Shown here: positions 18,671 to 51,860 of the stretch, one piece after another
How positions within the stretch are numbered: position 1 is the first letter of the stretch
Layout of the letters: each line of letters opens with the position of its first letter
From: a virus
Virus record (IMG/VR): IMGVR_UViG_3300036766_002289
Coordinates: 92,056-156,055 of that record
DNA length: 64,000 nt
Direction: 5' to 3' (one strand)
Notes under the pieces: generated by a model
The model's input: only the letters and a program-made list of their open reading frames with translations
Told to the model about the DNA's origin: nothing
Databases searched by the model: none
Position numbers and translations under genes: made by a program

Positions 18671-19756
18671 TCAACTGGCGTCCTTTAATTTTTCTTTTGA
18701 TTGCCTTACCATGACGGCTTCTTCTTTTGTTTTGTAATAGCCAAGATGCTTTTTGCCCATATGTGCTGACCATTTTTTCTTGTCTTTGTTCCAAGAAACG
18801 CCTACCACCCCAGACCTATTGCGAAAGTTTTTGATTTTCCATCTTTTTCTTAAAACGTTGTAAATGTAAAGTTTAGGATAATTTATTTCTTTGGCTATTT
18901 CATCTAAATTTAATCCATTATCAAAAAGGGCCATTATGAGTTGCTTAGTTTCTTCTGAAGAGACATTGAATTTATATTCTGGGTATTTTTCTAAACTAAT
19001 CTTATATTCCATGCATGGATGCGGGATATAGGGTTTTATCAAGTCGATAAAACCTAAATATGAACTAGTGCCTATGTATATTTTTGGAAAGTTCGCATGG
19101 CAATTTGTTATGCCAAGCGTTTTAATTTTTGAAATTAGGAATTCTATTTCTTTAGCAGTAAAGCAGTTAACACATAATTCTGCGCTTCTTTTTGCTGACA
19201 TATTGCACCCGTCATCCATGAACCATATCGCTAAAGAAAATGGTGTTAATAATAAATCTTGTGGCACTATCTTAATTTTTTTATTATCTTTTAAGACGTA
19301 ATTATTATTTTGATCTCGCTTATACCATTTATATTCCAACTCCGTGAACGTCGGATGACAAATTGTTCGTAATGTAAAATTATCTGTGCCATTAATTATT
19401 AACTCACAAGGCGTTTTTTTGGTTTGAAAGAACTTCTTACTAAATGGCAGCAATTCTTGAAACTTCCAATAACAATATTCTTTCTGGGGTGTGCCGTGCC
19501 CTTCTTGGAATTGTGAATTATAGGTTTTTCTTCTGGGAGTGGTAAGACACCCATCCCCTAAAAGGGAGCCTACAATAATTTCTTGTTGTCTTTCTGTAAG
19601 TTGAATCGCAAATTTGATATCGGTTTTTGTGGGAAGCCCATATCTTAATACTAAGTTATAAACTGAGCTATGAGAAATTTTGAAAAATTCAATGATTTCA
19701 GATACTGAATGATATTCATAGTAGTTTACAAAATCTTCTTTATTGATATTTAACAT
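18671..19756 (-). CDS. LAGLIDADG homing endonuclease with AP2-like C-terminal domain
   Basis: 361 residues. The N-terminal helix-turn-helix-like segment (SVSEIIEFFKISHSSVYNLV) precedes two LAGLIDADG helices: EIIVGSLLGDGCL near residue 58 and LAIWFMDDGCN near residue 175, each with the catalytic acidic residue. A second HTH (LNLDEIAKEINYPKLYIYNVL) and a C-terminal AP2/ERF-type DNA-binding module (GVVGVSWNKDKKKWSAHM...LGYYKTKEEAV) follow. It is free-standing and placed exactly between two genes of the minus block, typical of phage mobile endonucleases. It is the same architecture as the gene at 50937. Confidence 0.9.
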   Translation of the reverse strand: MLNINKEDFVNYYEYHSVSEIIEFFKISHSSVYNLVLRYGLPTKTDIKFAIQLTERQQEIIVGSLLGDGCLTTPRRKTYNSQFQEGHGTPQKEYCYWKFQELLPFSKKFFQTKKTPCELIINGTDNFTLRTICHPTFTELEYKWYKRDQNNNYVLKDNKKIKIVPQDLLLTPFSLAIWFMDDGCNMSAKRSAELCVNCFTAKEIEFLISKIKTLGITNCHANFPKIYIGTSSYLGFIDLIKPYIPHPCMEYKISLEKYPEYKFNVSSEETKQLIMALFDNGLNLDEIAKEINYPKLYIYNVLRKRWKIKNFRNRSGVVGVSWNKDKKKWSAHMGKKHLGYYKTKEEAVMVRQSKEKLKDAS

Positions 19757-33384: not shown

Positions 33385-34032
33385 ATGGAATATGTAACAG
33401 AAGGTGCCCCTGAGTATGCAATGACCTTATTTCCCCCAGGTTTTAAAGGTGTATGCGTCGATGTAGGTGCCTATGACTCTAAATGGATTAATAATACATG
33501 GATTTTTGAGAAAGCTGGCTGGGAGACGTATTGTATTGAACCTAATCCCAAATGTATTCCAACCCTTAAAAAAGAAAGAAAAAATGTATTAGAATATGCT
33601 TGTGGTGCTGCCAATCAAGACGATGTTGATTTCTTTGTTTATACAGTTGAAACTGTAGGAGAAGCTGCTGGCAGTGGTTTAATTGACCACTGTGCTGGGC
33701 CTCAAGGCGAATATCACAAAACAATCTTCACTAGAAAAGAAAAAGTTAAAGTTAGAACTCTGGATTGGCTGATGGAAAATGAAATCAAGCAAGACCACGT
33801 TGACTATGTTTCTATTGACGTAGAAAGAAACGAAATGAATGTCTTAAGGGGGTTTGACCTTGCTAGATGGAAGGTTAATGTAGTTCTTATTGAGAATCTT
33901 GAGCATGACCAAGAACAGCGTGATTATATGGTTGAAGCTGGCTATAGATACATCCATCGCATGACATTTAATGATTTCTATGTAACGCACGCCTTTTACG
34001 ATAATATGAAAGACTATTATCAATTTCCGTAA
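33385..34032 (+). CDS. FkbM-family methyltransferase
   Basis: 215 residues: GVCVDVGAYDSKWINNTWIF is the SAM-binding strand-loop, CIEPNP is motif II with the acidic ribose ligand, and YVSIDVERNEMNVLRGFDL is the FkbM-family metal/SAM segment (ID-E-NE-VL-G). FkbM enzymes O-methylate sugars. The 3' end overlaps the convergent small gene by 13 bases. Confidence 0.85.
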   Translation: MEYVTEGAPEYAMTLFPPGFKGVCVDVGAYDSKWINNTWIFEKAGWETYCIEPNPKCIPTLKKERKNVLEYACGAANQDDVDFFVYTVETVGEAAGSGLIDHCAGPQGEYHKTIFTRKEKVKVRTLDWLMENEIKQDHVDYVSIDVERNEMNVLRGFDLARWKVNVVLIENLEHDQEQRDYMVEAGYRYIHRMTFNDFYVTHAFYDNMKDYYQFP

Positions 34033-34319
34033 GTCTTCATTGATACTGAATCTAAACTAAAATTCAATAACTCGTCAATACTCTTGATGAGTTTGTTTCT
34101 TTTGGCGTTCAGGAGTTGGCAATCTTTACTGTATTTGGCTATTTCTTCATCGGTTCCGCCACCCATGATTTTTTCTTGAAGAAACCAGATTTTCATATTG
34201 ACCGTGAAAATTTCGTCTACTAGTAAACCTGGAGTCTTGACACATATAGAATCCTGATACATATAGTCATATATTCTTTTAATGAAGAATCTGAATTGGT
34301 CTTTAATAAATTTAATCAT
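34020..34319 (-). CDS. Small helical protein, possibly DUF4254-like
   Basis: 99 residues: GLLVDEIFTVNMKIWFLQEK followed by QLLNAKRNKLIKSIDELL. From memory this V-x-N-x-K-I-W-x-x-x-E pattern recalls DUF4254-type proteins found in sugar biosynthesis loci, but this is weak. The start overlaps the stop of the C-methyltransferase (ATGA-type), so the two are translationally coupled. Confidence 0.5.
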   Translation of the reverse strand: MIKFIKDQFRFFIKRIYDYMYQDSICVKTPGLLVDEIFTVNMKIWFLQEKIMGGGTDEEIAKYSKDCQLLNAKRNKLIKSIDELLNFSLDSVSMKTYGN

Positions 34320-36604
34320 ATAATTACAAATTTAGGACAAGGGACTATGAATTTACCACCGTTCTTTAGGAAGTCTGCTTCTCTTGCTACAAATTCATTT
34401 ATAAAGTGCCAAGGCAAGACAAGCAGATAATCTGGCTTAGCTTTTCTCATTTCTTCTTCGGAACAAATAGGAATATTGGTTCCTATTGTTTTGAGTCCAA
34501 ATTTGGCAGGACTTCTCTCAGCAATACCATCTATTAAAGTGTTATCTAATTTGAAATATTGGAGTAAGGTATTGCCTTTTGTACTTGCGCCATACCCCCA
34601 CACAGTTTTACCTTTTGCTTTTTCTTGTTTTATAAAGCTTACAGTTTTATCTTTAAGGTCATTAATTTTGTTGAAAAAATCTTTCCATGTCTCTTCACAG
34701 TCTAGTTTAAGTGTTTTTTCATATTCTAGAATTGAGTTTACTCTAAAACTACAAACATCTCGATATGGTTGAGAAGAGAAATTCTTGGAAGTGGCAGAGT
34801 ATTTCATGGCATAAACCCTGAATGAGCCACCATTTATGTCATTTAACTGGCAATCCATGATTTTAAACCCATTCTTTTCAAGTAGGGTTTTTATGTTGAA
34901 GAGGGAATAATAATACAAATGCTCGTGGCAATTATGAACTATTGCATTAGAAACGAGATAAGTATTGTCTTCGGTTTCAATGTTGTAAACTATTCCATCA
35001 TAATGTTCGGTTTTGATTTTACTAATTGGGACGTAGGTGAAATTATCGTCGGAATAATATCTTAAAGAGTCTCTTCTATTGTGATAAAAAGACGTGAAGA
35101 TTTTATCTAGAACTTTATTTTTACCTCTTAATTGCCAAGAATCTTTTGAAATGACCTTCCCACCTCGTATTTCTCTTTCATAAGGTTTCACATAAGAAAA
35201 TCCAGTCATTGCGTTTAGATTTGCGAGCATTAATTGAACTTGATATATTAAAGTTTTGGAAGCAGAATGTAATCCTACCTGATTGTCGATATAACCATCG
35301 CCGTTAACTAGTCCATTTAAAAAAGGTATGGTTATATCTTGAGTTGCATTAAAGATAAAATCTGGTATTTTTTTATTCAATGCACCTTTGCCGAACCATT
35401 CTTCAAACACTCTTGCCAATGCAGTGCAGGATATTTGTACATCCATTCCTTCAGATACTTTACTTTCATAAATTCTAGTTTTATAACCAATCTTTAAAAA
35501 TACTTTTTTAAGCTTGTCTGCGTAATCTTTTTCATTTTTGTTTAATGAGAAATTAATATGCAAATTAGTTGGTCTTCCATTTATGTATCCTTCAGCGACA
35601 TATAACCCCATCATCCATAAGATTTCATTAGTTAGAGTTAAATTTTTAAGACCTCTTCTATAATTGGGACTATCTGTTTTGTTGTATTTGGATAAATCTA
35701 TTTTTCTATTTGTTTCTTTTGCTTTTAATTTTGGCAGCAACAAATAGTCACCAGTTTTAATATCTTTAGCATCGACCCATTTAGGTGTGCTGTGGATATC
35801 TTTTGTCGTTAAAATTGGATGTTCTGGAGTACATTCTATTTCTTCTAAATATAGAGCTTTTATTTTAATCATCTCCCCTTTGTAGGGTCTACTGAATTTT
35901 TTCATTACCTTAGTATAATCGCCGTTTTTACCAATTACTTCATCGCCCACATTAATTTCAGATATTGGTTTGTTGGCACCTGTGATAAAAGCATCAGGTT
36001 TAAAACATATGTTATCAAAAGCAGTTTGTTGGAGCATTAAAGGAGTATAGCTCATTTGCATGACCCATATACCTTCATCTTCTAAGATTTCCCATACATC
36101 TTGAATGAATTTATCTGGGTGTTCTAGGTCATAAAACATGGCTATAGATGTAACAATTTTAGCTTTTAATTCACCGAACATTGACTTTTTGAATACTTCT
36201 GCACTGAAATAGTCTTGGATTATAATATTAGCATGGATTTTGGCTTCTTCCTTAAAAGTGTCATCGGCGGGGTCAATGCCCATCTTAAATATGCCTCTGG
36301 GCACAAAGCTAAGAAGGGTTCCATCGTTACTAGCAATGTCTATCCACAGGTCGTCATTGTCTAGTTTAGAAATACTGCAAATTGAGTCCACAATGCCTTT
36401 AAGTTCGTTTCTCATTGTGGCATTTATACCAGACCTATACCAGTATTTGCCATACATGGCATCGAGTGGTGCTGATTTATCTAATCTTACTGCCCCACTA
36501 TCTTCCAACATTAGTTTCATTTCAACCTTATTTGTTTGCGGCTCAGCATCTTTTGCGATAAAATCAGAGATGTATAGTTCGCCCAAAGTAAATAATTCTT
36601 TCAT
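34316..36604 (-). CDS. Sugar C-methyltransferase interrupted by an intein
   Basis: 762 residues translated. The host protein is residues 1-199 plus 559-762 (403 after splicing), the size of NDP-hexose C-methyltransferases. SAM motif I is WIDIASNDGTLLSF (87-100), followed by GIDPADDTF. The family motif CHEHLYYYSL continues directly from FDNI when the intein is removed, then NDINGGSFRV and a C-terminal domain with VWGYGASTKGNTLLQYF. The N-terminal Cys4 zinc module common in this family is mostly missing. It probably acts on a nucleotide-linked keto-sugar. It diverges from the LAGLIDADG gene at 36654. Confidence 0.9.
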   Translation of the reverse strand: MKELFTLGELYISDFIAKDAEPQTNKVEMKLMLEDSGAVRLDKSAPLDAMYGKYWYRSGINATMRNELKGIVDSICSISKLDNDDLWIDIASNDGTLLSFVPRGIFKMGIDPADDTFKEEAKIHANIIIQDYFSAEVFKKSMFGELKAKIVTSIAMFYDLEHPDKFIQDVWEILEDEGIWVMQMSYTPLMLQQTAFDNICFKPDAFITGANKPISEINVGDEVIGKNGDYTKVMKKFSRPYKGEMIKIKALYLEEIECTPEHPILTTKDIHSTPKWVDAKDIKTGDYLLLPKLKAKETNRKIDLSKYNKTDSPNYRRGLKNLTLTNEILWMMGLYVAEGYINGRPTNLHINFSLNKNEKDYADKLKKVFLKIGYKTRIYESKVSEGMDVQISCTALARVFEEWFGKGALNKKIPDFIFNATQDITIPFLNGLVNGDGYIDNQVGLHSASKTLIYQVQLMLANLNAMTGFSYVKPYEREIRGGKVISKDSWQLRGKNKVLDKIFTSFYHNRRDSLRYYSDDNFTYVPISKIKTEHYDGIVYNIETEDNTYLVSNAIVHNCHEHLYYYSLFNIKTLLEKNGFKIMDCQLNDINGGSFRVYAMKYSATSKNFSSQPYRDVCSFRVNSILEYEKTLKLDCEETWKDFFNKINDLKDKTVSFIKQEKAKGKTVWGYGASTKGNTLLQYFKLDNTLIDGIAERSPAKFGLKTIGTNIPICSEEEMRKAKPDYLLVLPWHFINEFVAREADFLKNGGKFIVPCPKFVII
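34931..36007 (-). mobile_element. Intein with LAGLIDADG (DOD) endonuclease domain
   Basis: 359 residues (host positions 200-558). It begins with Cys (CFKPDAFITGANKPISEI, block A) and has block B GEMIKIKALYLEEIECTPEHPI (TPEHP with the conserved His). The two DOD helices are LWMMGLYVAEGYI and FLNGLVNGDGYI. Block F is YDGIVYNIETEDNTYLV and the end is AIVHN followed by Cys+1 of the extein. All residues needed for canonical Cys/Asn splicing are present: Cys1, TxxH-like block B, penultimate His, final Asn and Cys+1. The insertion point is the conserved CHEHL motif, as expected for an active-site-targeting intein. Confidence 0.93.
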
Positions 36605-36653: not shown

Positions 36654-37487
36654 ATGAATTTGAAAACCAAAAAAATCACATGCAAACAGTGCCAAGTAAT
36701 TTTTGAGTGTAAAGATAATAAAAAAAATGAAAATAGAGTGTGTTGTTCTCATCATTGTTCATCTGTTTTAAATGGTCTCAGCAATAAAGGCAAACAACGC
36801 ACGAATGAATTTAAGAAAAGCCATTCAATAAGGTTCAGTGGAGTAAATAATCCTTTCTTTGGAAGGCAACATTCCATTGAGAGTAAGACTAGGATGAGTG
36901 AAAACAATAAATGGCATGATGAAGACTTTAACTATTGCGATTTGTCTGAATCACAGAAAGAGGTATTAGATGGCATAATGTTATCGGACGGTCACTTAGA
37001 CGCATCTAATACGTCGGCCCGTATTACTTACGGAAGCAAGTTTAGGGAAACTTTAGAAGATATTAAAAGTGAATTTTCAAATCTGCATTTCAGTGAGCCT
37101 TGGAAATCAAAAGTAAATTGTTATCATTTTAAATCAGCGTATTATAAAAACTTGTTAGAAGAACGGCACAGATGGTATCCAAATGATTATAAAATTGTGC
37201 CTTCTGACGTTCGGATTACTCCACTATCTTGTCAATGGTGGTTTATGGGCGATGGTTATCAAGTTGATTATGGTGTCATGTTATGTACGGATGCTTTTAA
37301 TGCAGAAAGCATTAAAATATTAGTGGAAAAATTAGATTTTGATTGTCACAGGACTATCAGTAATAGAATAAGAATCAATAGTCGATCCGCTACGAATTTT
37401 TTGAATTGGACTAGGGATGCTGCGACTATACCAAAGCAGTATTTATACAAATGGGGTAATCACAGGAGGCAGAAACTTGTTAAATAA
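36654..37487 (+). CDS. LAGLIDADG-type homing endonuclease with zinc finger and NUMOD3
   Basis: 277 residues. The N-terminal CKQCQVIFECKDNKKNENRVCCSHHC forms a zinc finger. FSGVNNPFFGRQHSIESKTRMSE matches the NUMOD3 DNA-binding repeat. LDGIMLSDGHL and QWWFMGDGY are the two LAGLIDADG helices with acidic residues. The gene sits between the C-methyltransferase and gmd and its last 11 bases overlap the gmd start, with the gmd ribosome site inside its coding sequence. An imperfect hairpin (GTTCC...GGAAC arms around ATACTAT/ATAGTGT, 36612-36643) precedes it. Confidence 0.82.
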   Translation: MNLKTKKITCKQCQVIFECKDNKKNENRVCCSHHCSSVLNGLSNKGKQRTNEFKKSHSIRFSGVNNPFFGRQHSIESKTRMSENNKWHDEDFNYCDLSESQKEVLDGIMLSDGHLDASNTSARITYGSKFRETLEDIKSEFSNLHFSEPWKSKVNCYHFKSAYYKNLLEERHRWYPNDYKIVPSDVRITPLSCQWWFMGDGYQVDYGVMLCTDAFNAESIKILVEKLDFDCHRTISNRIRINSRSATNFLNWTRDAATIPKQYLYKWGNHRRQKLVK

Positions 37488-38502
37488 AAAGATTGTTTTT
37501 TGCACAGGAATAAATGGCCAAGACGGAAGTTATTTGGCTGAAAGACTGTTAGAAGATGGCTACAAGGTTCATGGTTTAATAAGGCGTAGTTCCTTGCCAA
37601 ATACGGGACGAATAACACATATAATAGACAAAATTACATTAGAAACTGGAGATATGACTGATTGTTCTAATTTAAGTAGGCTAATTCGTGCCCTTCAACC
37701 CACAGAAATTTACAATTTAGCTGCCCAAAGTGACGTTAAAACATCGTTCACAATGCAGGAATTCACTGCTCAAACTAACGCAGTTGGTGTCTTACATATT
37801 TTAGAGGCAGTTAAAAGTCATTCCCCACATACTCGGGTTTATCAAGCTTCTACTTCGGAATTGTACGGGGGGAAGAATGTCCCAATAACTGGATACAATG
37901 AAGATAGTCCATTTAGGCCAAGAAGTCCATATGCAGTAGCAAAGCTTTATGCATATTGGATGTGTCGAATGTATAGGGAGGCTTATGGGACTTTTGCCGC
38001 TAATGGGATTCTAATGAATCACGAAAGTCCCCGTCGTGGGGAGAATTTCGTGACTAAAAAAATCACTTCATGGTGTGGGCGCTATAAAAAATCACTTCAT
38101 GGCGGCGCAAATTGGCCAGGTGTTTTAGAGCTTGGTAACTTGGAGAGTTTCCGTGATTGGGGTCATGCCAAAGATTATATTGAAGCAATGATTCTTATCA
38201 ATAGGCATTCTGAACCTGATGATTGGGTCGTTGCCACGGGTGAAACCCATAGTATCCGTGAATTTGTGCAGAATTGTTTTGATTGGATGAATATCAAACT
38301 AGAATGGCAAGGAAGTGGCTTAGGCGAAGTTGGCTTAGTGGATGGGAAGAAAGTAATTGCCATTAGCGAAGAATTCTTTCGGCCATCTGAAGTGGATAGA
38401 TTATTAGGCGATAGTAGTAAGATTCGTAGCAAACTCGGTTGGAAGCCTAAATTTAGTTTCAGTGATTTGATTGATGACATGATGACTTATGAGGTGAATT
38501 AA
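37477..38502 (+). CDS. gmd: GDP-mannose 4,6-dehydratase
   Basis: 341 residues from TTG at 37477, chosen because AGGAGG lies seven bases upstream (37464-37469) and because it puts the NADP loop T-GINGQDG at residues 10-17, normal for the family; the in-frame ATG further upstream lies inside the endonuclease. Short-chain dehydrogenase motifs are Y152-x3-K156 (PYAVAK) and STSELYG with the catalytic Thr/Glu. NHESPRRGENFVT is diagnostic of GMD. It converts GDP-D-mannose to GDP-4-keto-6-deoxymannose, the entry point to GDP-L-fucose; fcl follows at 44384. The stop overlaps the next gene. Confidence 0.95.
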   Translation: MLNKKIVFCTGINGQDGSYLAERLLEDGYKVHGLIRRSSLPNTGRITHIIDKITLETGDMTDCSNLSRLIRALQPTEIYNLAAQSDVKTSFTMQEFTAQTNAVGVLHILEAVKSHSPHTRVYQASTSELYGGKNVPITGYNEDSPFRPRSPYAVAKLYAYWMCRMYREAYGTFAANGILMNHESPRRGENFVTKKITSWCGRYKKSLHGGANWPGVLELGNLESFRDWGHAKDYIEAMILINRHSEPDDWVVATGETHSIREFVQNCFDWMNIKLEWQGSGLGEVGLVDGKKVIAISEEFFRPSEVDRLLGDSSKIRSKLGWKPKFSFSDLIDDMMTYEVN

Positions 38503-39425
38503 TGAAAAAAGGTTTATTCATTAATCAAATAAAAACTCAGTGTAGCATTTATGAGTCTGGAGTAATGATTTATAATGCTCTTAAAGCCAACCCAAATTTT
38601 CAATTAGATTACATAGAAACCACATGCAATTTTAGTATTACAGAAAAATATGACTTCTGTGTGGTGAACTGGCATCATTGCACGATGCCTTTTACCAAAA
38701 CACAGATTCAACAGCTGCCAGGGTTGAAAATAGGCATTAATTTGGAAGTATCACCATTAAATTGCATTCCTTATATGCCTGGGGACATATTTGATGCTTA
38801 TATGATAATCGACCCAACTAAAGTCAAGGAAGGGAACTTTTTCCCATTTCCAAGACCTTTAGAAGTTGTGGATGGTTTGAAGCCTTTGTTAGATGGAAAT
38901 AAGATGGTTGTAGGAGCGTTTGGATTTTGTGGTAACAATGACAAGCGTTTCAATGAAATCATAGAGTATTTTAACACAACTGGTGAAGAATGCATCATAA
39001 GATTTAATTTCCCATTTGCGACTTACATGCCCGATAATCACATTTTTGTAAGCTCATATGTACAAAATTTAAAACTGAAAGTCAAATCTCCTAATATAGA
39101 TTTAAGAATTACACATCATTACATGTCCAAGCCTGAGTTGGTGAGATGGTGTTCAGAGCATACAATTAATGCATTTCCTTATTATAGGAACATTCCTGGT
39201 TTGGCAGCTGTAACCGATCAGGCAATATCTTCAGGTAGGCCATTAGCGGTATCAAATTGTTCCACATTTCGACATTTGTTCAAGTATATATCTTATTATC
39301 CTAAACAGAGTTACAAGGAACTGATGGTTTCTACTCTAGACGGCATTAAACAGATGCAAATTGATTGGAGTACTGGCAGATTTAATGCTAGGTTTAATGA
39401 ATTGTTAATTGAGAAGGGACTATAA
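38502..39425 (+). CDS. GT-B-like glycosyltransferase, single-domain member of a local family
   Basis: 307 residues. Shared features with the next, two-domain protein include C-xxYESGVMIYNAL near the N-terminus (compare CGVYQFGKRVYEL), VVNWHHCTMP, a FPRPL turn, VGAFGFCGNNDKRF and the C-terminal INAFPY...PGLAAVTDQAISSGRPLAVS. The last resembles the nucleotide-sugar loop of GT4-like enzymes. It is probably a diverged glycosyltransferase. Its start overlaps the gmd stop and it runs to within one base of the next start. Confidence 0.65.
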   Translation: MKKGLFINQIKTQCSIYESGVMIYNALKANPNFQLDYIETTCNFSITEKYDFCVVNWHHCTMPFTKTQIQQLPGLKIGINLEVSPLNCIPYMPGDIFDAYMIIDPTKVKEGNFFPFPRPLEVVDGLKPLLDGNKMVVGAFGFCGNNDKRFNEIIEYFNTTGEECIIRFNFPFATYMPDNHIFVSSYVQNLKLKVKSPNIDLRITHHYMSKPELVRWCSEHTINAFPYYRNIPGLAAVTDQAISSGRPLAVSNCSTFRHLFKYISYYPKQSYKELMVSTLDGIKQMQIDWSTGRFNARFNELLIEKGL

Positions 39426-41390
39426 TTGGCAAGATATACACATAAAACTCAACTAGAGTTATTACAGGAACAAATAGAAATAAGTAAGACTCTACAGGAG
39501 CAAGTCAAATTAAGGCCAGTTGATAAACCAATTGGCAGACCAAGAGTTCTGCTATTAAATCATACTCATGTCCAATGCGGAGTATATCAATTTGGTAAAA
39601 GGGTTTATGAATTAGCGGCCAGATCAAAAAAAGTTGATTATTTTTATAAAGATTTAAACAGTCATGCCGAATATGTTAAAGTTCTTGATGAAGTTAAGCC
39701 CCATTATGTAATTTACAACTGGCATTGGGACAGGATGCCTTGGTTGAGAGATAAGGATATTATAACTAACAAGGCCATGAAGCATTATTTCATTTATCAT
39801 GATGGTTCTATGATGGAGGTGTATGATAAATATTTGTTTTTTGGAGAATATGACCCACAGAAAAAAGATGCAGTAAACAATAGAATCCTTTTACCAAGAC
39901 CTTTATTCCCATACGAAGGTAAGTATCCTGTCAATACAGTGCCAACAATAGGTAGTTTTGGTTTTGCCTTTACGCACAAACGTTTTCCAGAACTAGTTAC
40001 GTTAGTAAATAATCAATTTAGTGAAGCTGTGATAAACATTCATATGACTTTGCCATTTTTTGGAGACAGTGCTGGTGGGAAAATCGCTGACATTGTGAAG
40101 GCTTGTCATAAGAATAATTTCAGAAAAGAAGTGACATTAAATGTTACGCAACATTTTATGGATGACCAGCAATTATTAAGCTTTTTGGCCAAAAATGATA
40201 TCAATGTTTTCAACTATGCAGACCAACATAATCCAGGTTTGTCCAGTGTCCCTGATTATGCTTTGTCTGTTAAGAGACCGATAGCAATTACTAGTAATAT
40301 GATGTTTCGGCACATAGCCAGTGAAGGTATTATGTTGGAGAAGAATAGTATAAAAGAGATATTGAATAAAGGCATAGGCCCTGTAGAGCAATACCATGAT
40401 AAATGGTCGATTAATAATTTTACTTCAAGTATGGAACAATTGTTTTTACCAGAGAGAAGTATGTCCCTTTTAAAGCCAGAAGTGTTGTTTGTAAATCATA
40501 AAATCCCTAATTGTGGAGTTTACCAATTTGGCAAACGTGCATATGAGCAGGTTGCGGCATCTGATAGGGTTGAGTATTCTTATAAGGAAGTAGATTCGAC
40601 AGGGGAAATTGAGGCAATATTTAGAAACCCCCCAAAACATATTGTTTTCAATTGGCACCGTGCAACAATGCCGTGCTTAACAGAGCAAATGGTTATAAAC
40701 AACAAAAAGTCGAAGCATTATTTCCTTTTTCATGAAGAAGTCATAAGGCAAAACTATAACAAATATTTCTTTTTTGGGGATTATGATATTGGTAATAAAA
40801 GAGTGCCGCTTAGTAAGAGTGAATTATTGCCCAGACCTTTGTTTACTTACACTGGTAATTATCCAGTTAATGAAATTTTTACTGTTGGCAGTTTCGGTTT
40901 TGGGTTTTGGAATAAGGGGTTTCATGTATTGGTCAATCGCATTAATATGGAATTTGACAATGCTATTATCAACTTACATATACCTTATTCTCATTTTGGT
41001 GATCCAGATAAATCACAAACGCACGCAGTTATAGCCGCCTGTAGAAGATTGAATGTTAAGCCTGGTATAAAACTCAACATTACTCAGTCATTCCTAACTA
41101 ATGATGAAATATTGACCTTTTTAGCTGGCAATGATATCAATGCTTTTCTTTATTCAGATAATGGGGAAGGACTGTCCAGTGCAGTTGATTATGCTTTGTC
41201 GGTTAAGCGACCAATGATGATTACAGATTGTCAGATGTTCAGGCACTTCAAAATGAATGAAATAGCCGCAGAATGTAATACAACAATGAGTATTTACAAT
41301 CGCGGGCTTCAGCCTTTAGAAAAAGTTCGTGAAGATTGGGCAACAGAGAAACTTATAAATCAAATGGATGAGGTGTTCCTTTATGAATAA
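39426..41390 (+). CDS. Tandem two-domain GT-B-like glycosyltransferase
   Basis: 654 residues made of two homologous halves (about 35-350 and 355-654). Each has L(L/F)(L/V)NH, C-GVYQFGKR-YE, an NWH-MPxL strand, HYF-(Y/F)H, (L)LPRPLF-Y-G-YPVN, TxGSFGF and an NDIN-F-YAD...GLSS-(P/A)VDYALSVKRP module. The 38502 gene carries a third, more distant copy. The start is TTG at 39426 directly after the preceding stop. Bifunctional polymerase-like activity is possible. The C-terminus overlaps the next methyltransferase by eight bases. Confidence 0.65.
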   Translation: MARYTHKTQLELLQEQIEISKTLQEQVKLRPVDKPIGRPRVLLLNHTHVQCGVYQFGKRVYELAARSKKVDYFYKDLNSHAEYVKVLDEVKPHYVIYNWHWDRMPWLRDKDIITNKAMKHYFIYHDGSMMEVYDKYLFFGEYDPQKKDAVNNRILLPRPLFPYEGKYPVNTVPTIGSFGFAFTHKRFPELVTLVNNQFSEAVINIHMTLPFFGDSAGGKIADIVKACHKNNFRKEVTLNVTQHFMDDQQLLSFLAKNDINVFNYADQHNPGLSSVPDYALSVKRPIAITSNMMFRHIASEGIMLEKNSIKEILNKGIGPVEQYHDKWSINNFTSSMEQLFLPERSMSLLKPEVLFVNHKIPNCGVYQFGKRAYEQVAASDRVEYSYKEVDSTGEIEAIFRNPPKHIVFNWHRATMPCLTEQMVINNKKSKHYFLFHEEVIRQNYNKYFFFGDYDIGNKRVPLSKSELLPRPLFTYTGNYPVNEIFTVGSFGFGFWNKGFHVLVNRINMEFDNAIINLHIPYSHFGDPDKSQTHAVIAACRRLNVKPGIKLNITQSFLTNDEILTFLAGNDINAFLYSDNGEGLSSAVDYALSVKRPMMITDCQMFRHFKMNEIAAECNTTMSIYNRGLQPLEKVREDWATEKLINQMDEVFLYE

Positions 41391-50885: not shown

Positions 50886-50906
50886 GGTTTGGTAAACTAT
50901 TTTTGG

Positions 50907-50953
50907 AAATATTCGGTTGGCACACTATATTATAGTATGTCAACCGAATATTT
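50907..50953 (+). promoter_or_regulatory. Near-perfect inverted repeat over the start codon of the LAGLIDADG gene
   Basis: 23-base arms at 50907-50929 and 50931-50953 pair with one G-T wobble and one C-A mismatch, around a single central base (the actual loop would be a few bases). The ATG at 50937 is inside the 3' arm, again within ATAGTATG. No ribosome site is visible between arms, so initiation may need a short leaderless transcript starting in the palindrome (ACTATATTATAG). Confidence 0.7.
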
Positions 50954-51860
50954 ATTTACAACTGAGCAATGGTCAATAATCAACGGTTCTTTGTTGGGTG
51001 ATGGACACATTACTAATCAAAGATATGGAAATTCCGCTTTCGCTAAAAACCAGTGTGGAAAACATGAGGATTATTTAAAGTGGCATTTTGATAAACTTAC
51101 ACCTTATTCATGTTCTATAAAATATTATGATAATTATTGTCTTGGTAAAAAATACGATAGAATTAGTTTTAGGACTAAATCAAATTTGTCTTTCGCAAAA
51201 TTAAGGGAAAAATGGTATCCATCAGGCAAAAAAATTATTCCACAAGATTTAAAGCTAGACCCATTAACTATAGCTGTTTGGTTTTTTGATGATGGATCGA
51301 ATAGTATTAAGTCTAGGTGTTGTAAATTCGCAACCTATTGTTTTACCAAAAAAGAATGTGAATTCTTAGCGGAAGAATTAACTAACTTTAATATAAAATG
51401 TAATATTTCTAAAAAAAATGTTATAATAGTTAAAACTCAGTCTTATAAGGAACTAGTTGATTTAATTAAGCCTTACATGTTATGGGATTGTTTCAAACAT
51501 AAAGTTCAATACAGAGACTCTGAGCTAAGTTTTACCACAGAAGAAGAAGCGTTAAAAATTTTTGAGTTATTTAAATCAGGTGACACACAAAGACAAATCG
51601 CCAAGAAAGTCGGAAGAAGTACAACACTGGTTTCGACAATTCTACGGGGGTGCAGAAAACATTATCTAGGACTGTCTGTTGCCAAAGAGGGAGTTTCATT
51701 AAACAATACAACAGGATTTACTGGAGTTTGTTGGGAGAAAAATAGAAATAAATGGCGGGTGGATGGTAAGAAAAATAATAAAAATGTGTACTTAGGCAGA
51801 TTCAAAAAGAAAGAAGACGCAATTAAGGCTAGGAAAAATTGGGAAATTAGGAATAAATAA
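50937..51860 (+). CDS. LAGLIDADG homing endonuclease with AP2-like domain
   Basis: 307 residues from ATG 50937. WSIINGSLLGDGHI and TIAVWFFDDGSN are the LAGLIDADG helices. FKSGDTQRQIAKKVGRSTTLVSTIL is an HTH. GFTGVCWEKNRNKWRVDGKKN...YLGRFKKKEDAIKAR is an AP2-type module. The same domain order as the 18671 gene. Start chosen by similarity of N-termini and by the hairpin; the longer frame from 50889 is unsupported. Confidence 0.9.
   Translation: MSTEYLFTTEQWSIINGSLLGDGHITNQRYGNSAFAKNQCGKHEDYLKWHFDKLTPYSCSIKYYDNYCLGKKYDRISFRTKSNLSFAKLREKWYPSGKKIIPQDLKLDPLTIAVWFFDDGSNSIKSRCCKFATYCFTKKECEFLAEELTNFNIKCNISKKNVIIVKTQSYKELVDLIKPYMLWDCFKHKVQYRDSELSFTTEEEALKIFELFKSGDTQRQIAKKVGRSTTLVSTILRGCRKHYLGLSVAKEGVSLNNTTGFTGVCWEKNRNKWRVDGKKNNKNVYLGRFKKKEDAIKARKNWEIRNK

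Follow-up and report, generated by a model that had tools for sequence, protein, structure and literature searches.

An intein with a LAGLIDADG endonuclease at the catalytic motif of a phage sugar C-methyltransferase, and its same-site relatives in archaeal genomes

We report that a sugar C-methyltransferase gene of a 390-kb phage almost certainly carries, in the codon block of its active site, a mobile intein with a LAGLIDADG homing endonuclease, whose splicing and DNA cutting we infer from its sequence. The window, the whole stretch of DNA that was analysed, is 64,000 nucleotides long and comprises bases 92056–156055 of a 390,039-base viral record. On its minus strand, a frame that is open across 762 codons (34316–36604) encodes a 762-aa precursor, which consists of a 199-aa N-extein ending in AFDNI (36008–36604), a 359-aa intein running from Cys1 to a terminal His-Asn (34931–36007; precursor residues 200–558) and a C-extein of 204 aa plus the stop codon that starts with CHEHL and so supplies Cys+1 (34316–34930). 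The translation of this ORF shows that the intein begins with CFKPDAF and ends with AIVHN, directly abutting CHEHL. Once the insert is removed, the resulting 403-aa protein aligns end to end with uninterrupted relatives, without a gap at the junction, and the boundaries are therefore fixed by comparison and not by motif alone. The original prediction of an intein with exact boundaries at 34931–36007 proved correct to the base, as judged from Cys1, from VHN followed by Cys and from the gap-free relatives. The prediction that Cys+1 begins a conserved CHEHL motif likewise held, as the relatives read DNICHEH at this position.

The intein and its host enzyme

Profile searches of the precursor ORF against Pfam recovered Intein_splicing (PF14890; 62 bits, cut-off 35.8) and LAGLIDADG_3 (PF14528; 47 bits, cut-off 22.5), the latter matching the intein in two stretches, and the NCBIfam model intein_Nterm (TIGR01445) scored 25.9 bits against a cut-off of 24.5. 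The window intein has the full set of N-terminal Cys, TxxH, C-terminal His-Asn and Cys at +1. Splicing block A (CFKPDAFITG, with the nucleophile Cys1) lies at 35978–36007, block B (TPEH, the TxxH element) at 35807–35839 and blocks F and G (VYNIETEDNTYLVSNAIVHN) at 34931–35005, all on the minus strand. Block F reads N-T-Y, without the histidine typical of many inteins, and similar variants occur in the aligned related viral and archaeal inteins. The endonuclease, also on the minus strand, contributes LAGLIDADG motif 1 (GLYVAEGYI; 35582–35623), block D (NKKIPDF; 35351–35383) and LAGLIDADG motif 2 (GLVNGDGYI; 35288–35335). Each LAGLIDADG motif retains its acidic residue, that of motif 2 corresponding to the invariant D237 of a 24-row intein alignment (A2), and block D retains the lysine that is invariant in the same alignment (K212). 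The LAGLIDADG endonuclease domain that had been predicted inside the intein is thus supported by a PF14528 match above cut-off, by two motifs and by intact acidic residues.

An AlphaFold model of the intein computed from alignment A2 had a mean pLDDT of 91.7, and its best Foldseek match in the PDB was the TliVMA intein (7qsu; E 1.3e-20, TM 0.71), followed by PI-PkoII, PI-SceI, PI-PfuI and I-DmoI. In this model, the window intein adopts the Hint (horseshoe) fold; the model of the whole precursor was moderate (pLDDT 79, pTM 0.56). The solved inteins PI-PkoII and PI-SceI also matched the window intein by sequence in a search of PDB sequences. Like the window intein, TliVMA/PhoVMA, PI-PkoII and PI-SceI (7qsu, 7qst, 2cw7, 1vde) have a Hint domain in which a two-motif LAGLIDADG endonuclease is embedded, at 13–18% identity in structural alignment. 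The hosts of TliVMA/PhoVMA and PI-SceI are V-type ATPases and that of PI-PkoII is a ribonucleotide reductase; to our knowledge, none of these solved inteins has a sugar C-methyltransferase as its host.

The spliced 403-aa protein matched the Pfam families PF08484 (Methyltransf_14; 157 bits) and PF13489 (32.6 bits), giving a SAM methyltransferase domain together with a C-methyltransferase C-terminal domain, and it aligned with the D-mycarose 3-C-methyltransferase MtmC (4rv9) and with TcaB9. The Methyltransf_14 match and these alignments confirm the predicted class of the host, which by sequence is a sugar C-methyltransferase of the TcaB9/MtmC type with a (Y/C)HEH-type motif. No Pfam match to the N-terminal zinc-binding domain was found in the spliced protein, and its alignments with solved structures begin only at query residue 35–47. 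The insertion point FDNI/CHEH (the slash marks the junction) aligns with FDTI/YHEH of MtmC, and the (Y)HEH motif of TcaB9 holds active-site residues (Tyr222, Glu224 and His225). In an extein alignment of 114 sequences, the junction residue ranked 1 of 403 in smoothed conservation; a preference of inteins for conserved sites has been described (PMC2814812).

With its catalytic motif split by the insert, the 762-aa precursor would, we propose, lack activity. Self-excision of the intein, through an N-S acyl shift at Cys1, transfer to Cys+1 and cyclisation of Asn359, would join AFDNI to CHEHL and release a working 403-aa enzyme that probably 3-C-methylates a 4-keto-6-deoxy nucleotide sugar, the product of the GDP-mannose 4,6-dehydratase encoded next to it. 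Once free, the intein would cut, at the same codons, gene copies that lack an insert whenever one phage meets another, or a different genome, in the same cell, and repair of the cut gene would copy the intein in. As activity is expected only after splicing, the enzyme could serve as a simple activity reporter.

The GDP-mannose 4,6-dehydratase gene (37477–38502, plus strand; TTG start), which overlaps the end of a neighbouring endonuclease gene, is the likely pathway partner of the methyltransferase. In many relatives, too, a dehydratase gene lies no more than 5 kb from that of the methyltransferase; Synechococcus phage DSL-LC02 has the gene order dehydratase, methyltransferase and GDP-L-fucose synthase. 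The product is likely a methyl-branched 6-deoxy sugar derived from GDP-mannose, the substrate being one that we infer. The same glycan gene region includes an FkbM-type methyltransferase gene (33385–34032, plus strand). At 38502–39425 and 39426–41390, the window also encodes tandem copies of a domain of about 300 aa with no Pfam match, relatives of which adjoin C-methyltransferases in many phages; one match, in Synechococcus phage DSL-LC02, is annotated as a glycosyltransferase.

Empty and occupied insertion sites

Among the matches listed from viral contigs, 80 of 80 relatives of the methyltransferase (54–73% identical) have an empty, gap-free site, and their end-to-end alignment with the spliced protein bears out the earlier claim that removal of the insert leaves an unbroken 403-residue C-methyltransferase. 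The site is also empty in the 735-kb phage LR756501 (67% identical), and in one empty-site relative (L012) 28 of the 30 bases around the junction are identical to the window. The allele with the window intein occurs in one phage record, against more than 80 relatives. A close search of viral contigs for the intein alone gave no match, and megablast of the region against named phages returned no relative; an alignment-based intein query of viral contigs recovered relatives of 21–31% identity in other genes and one virus with an intein at the same site. Another viral relative (L101) has no insert at NI/CHEH but carries a different, 347-aa intein (L101 3946–4986) in its homologous C-methyltransferase, inserted at GYGA/STKGN, a second highly conserved motif of the methyltransferase, and ending in SGN/S. 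A pattern search for further inteins of this kind at GYGA/STKGN returned L101 only. The known range of inteins thereby gains a host enzyme with two insertion sites.

Occupied sites were searched for with the pattern HNCHEHxxY, a pattern limited to sites that have Cys at +1 together with this exact motif. This yielded 1 viral and 10 genomic matches. Three of them (L087, L088 and L094) are C-methyltransferases; the remainder are not and were set aside as chance. In a Woesearchaeota archaeon (L094/L182), the same NI/CHEH site is occupied, with 47% identity to the window precursor in the intein, 38% in the N-extein and 55% in the C-extein. A Nitrososphaeraceae archaeon (L088) has the site occupied by an intein 39% identical to that of the window, and a second Nitrososphaeraceae variant contig (L183) contains the N-terminal part of an intein that is 42% identical. 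Contigs L183 and L185 overlap but differ, and were treated as variants with their inteins kept separate; for the tree, their sequences were joined into a single Nitrososphaeraceae extein, which forms a long branch. The site is also occupied in viral contig 3300031576_000113 (L087/L104), by an intein 25% identical to that of the window. The occupied archaeal genomes are metagenome-assembled, and a viral or other contaminant contig may have entered a bin; the Woesearchaeota extein groups with exteins of other archaeal genomes in the extein tree. The Woesearchaeota intein thus shares its site and intact endonuclease motifs with the window intein and differs in residing in an archaeal genome, with its extein among intein-free archaeal exteins.

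Conflicting histories and alternative readings

In the extein tree, the window gene falls in a large clade of phages, beside the empty phage genes L007 and L011; that of Woesearchaeota stands beside the empty archaeal gene L237. Site occupancy requires four changes on this tree, and a topology that unites the window extein with that of Woesearchaeota as one clade is rejected (p-AU 6e-49). The intein tree groups the inteins of the window, Woesearchaeota and Nitrososphaeraceae in a single clade (support 100/99), to which other Nitrososphaeria inteins are closest (100/94). The strong conflict between the two histories, together with the sporadic occupancy of the site, is the pattern of a homing intein, and the comparison points to archaeal-type ancestry of the window intein. 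For the intein of the occupied viral contig (L184), 25% identity and the tree suggest an independent invasion, and its grouping with the other same-site inteins was not rejected (p-AU 0.118). A tentative but plausible reading is that a site-specific intein lineage homes between archaea and very large tailed phages into the CHEH codons of sugar C-methyltransferases, with shared glycan genes as a cross-domain transfer route, and that a different intein invaded GYGA/STKGN. Mechanistically, the window intein is an ordinary mobile intein, and its phage–archaea distribution is what is informative: a site common to a huge phage and to DPANN and Nitrososphaeria archaea, with a conflicting extein history, makes a compact case in which phage–archaea transfer of inteins can be tested. 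Mycobacteriophage inteins also occupy active centres, have several insertion points per protein and show conflicting intein and extein trees (Kelley et al. 2016, PMC5050341). The window case resembles them in its active-centre insertion and its disagreeing trees, whereas their hosts are mainly terminases and nucleotide enzymes and their transfer links phages with actinobacteria, the relatives of the window intein being archaeal.

Other readings were weighed against that of an active mobile intein. The intein might still splice with an inactive endonuclease, so that vertical inheritance has replaced homing and what is seen is the trace of earlier spread alone. The presence of the intein in one phage record among the more than 80 relatives, with the closest phage genes all empty, would fit such a history, and decay does occur in the clade, as the Nitrososphaeraceae intein has lost both acidic residues (VATG and VDDE in the two motifs) and its endonuclease has decayed. 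However, both acidic residues, the block D lysine and the sequence DSWQLRG are retained in the window intein and in the Woesearchaeota intein; their survival across this divergence would not be expected without use, and we consider an inactive endonuclease unlikely. It is far less probable still that the insert is a non-splicing Hint-type element (BIL- or Hedgehog-like) or a dead intein within an inactive methyltransferase: the PT-HINT and Hint families do match weakly, but below cut-off, whereas Cys1, TxxH, HN and Cys+1 are all present, the frame is uninterrupted and joining the flanks restores an intact enzyme that has the conserved motifs.

The active-site insertion would also make the enzyme dependent on splicing, and Cys1 and Cys+1 are redox-sensitive in principle, which would suit conditional splicing, under redox or another signal, as a switch of glycan modification that is kept to the benefit of the phage. 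We regard this as very improbable, as the close relatives all lack the intein, which is distributed like a mobile element that occurs sporadically. Our preferred reading remains that of an active homing intein.

The neighbouring endonuclease gene and other inteins

A free-standing homing endonuclease gene with NUMOD3 and LAGLIDADG_2 (PF03161) matches in Pfam lies at 36654–37487 on the plus strand, separate from the intein. It sits between the methyltransferase and the GDP-mannose dehydratase, with an 11-base overlap with the start of the latter, and has weak relatives in Bacillus and Haloarcula viruses. No group I intron was found around it at the Rfam gathering level. The original prediction described two homing elements flanking this locus; the LAGLIDADG ORF is real, but the implied link to the intein was overstated, as the gene belongs to another LAGLIDADG family, is one of four LAGLIDADG_2 genes in the phage genome and has no homologue at any of the 99 loci searched. 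The most fitting reading of this ORF is that of an independent selfish gene. Further free-standing LAGLIDADG_2 genes of the window lie at 18671–19756 (minus strand) and at 50889–51860 (plus strand), the second of which weakly matches AP2 and lies close to a tRNA-Met gene (50131). Free-standing PF03161 genes within Haloferax glycosylation clusters have been proposed to drive gene conversion of these clusters (PMC5867893). The gene at 36654–37487 is likewise a free-standing member of this Pfam family in a glycan gene cluster, but the Haloferax genes lie on archaeal chromosomes, whereas the present one is in a phage, beside a GDP-mannose dehydratase, and has NUMOD3; by analogy, a role in gene conversion could apply to it.

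Among the open-licence papers searched, none that we found describes an intein inside a sugar C-methyltransferase. The earlier view that a glycan-biosynthesis host is uncommon is fair, but such a host is not unique, as inteins were also found in other sugar genes. With genes named from their flanking motifs, viral inteins occur in a DegT-type sugar aminotransferase (L119) and in a GT4-like glycosyltransferase (L137/L138), and Nitrososphaeria inteins occur in apparent UDP-sugar dehydrogenases (L220, L221, L223 and L224; flank GNRPKMFPG.IGGHC). Many DPANN and Nitrososphaeria inteins (L187–L219) lie in proteins that, judged by their flanks, are NifU-like, SufB-like or 2-oxoacid:ferredoxin oxidoreductase-like. 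The phage genome itself has a second intein (L002) outside the window (G000:C1:372714-373361), of about 232 aa and without LAGLIDADG_3. Its host is a T4-gp20-like portal protein, the C-terminal part of which is 87% identical to the corresponding part in the 595-kb phage LR756511.
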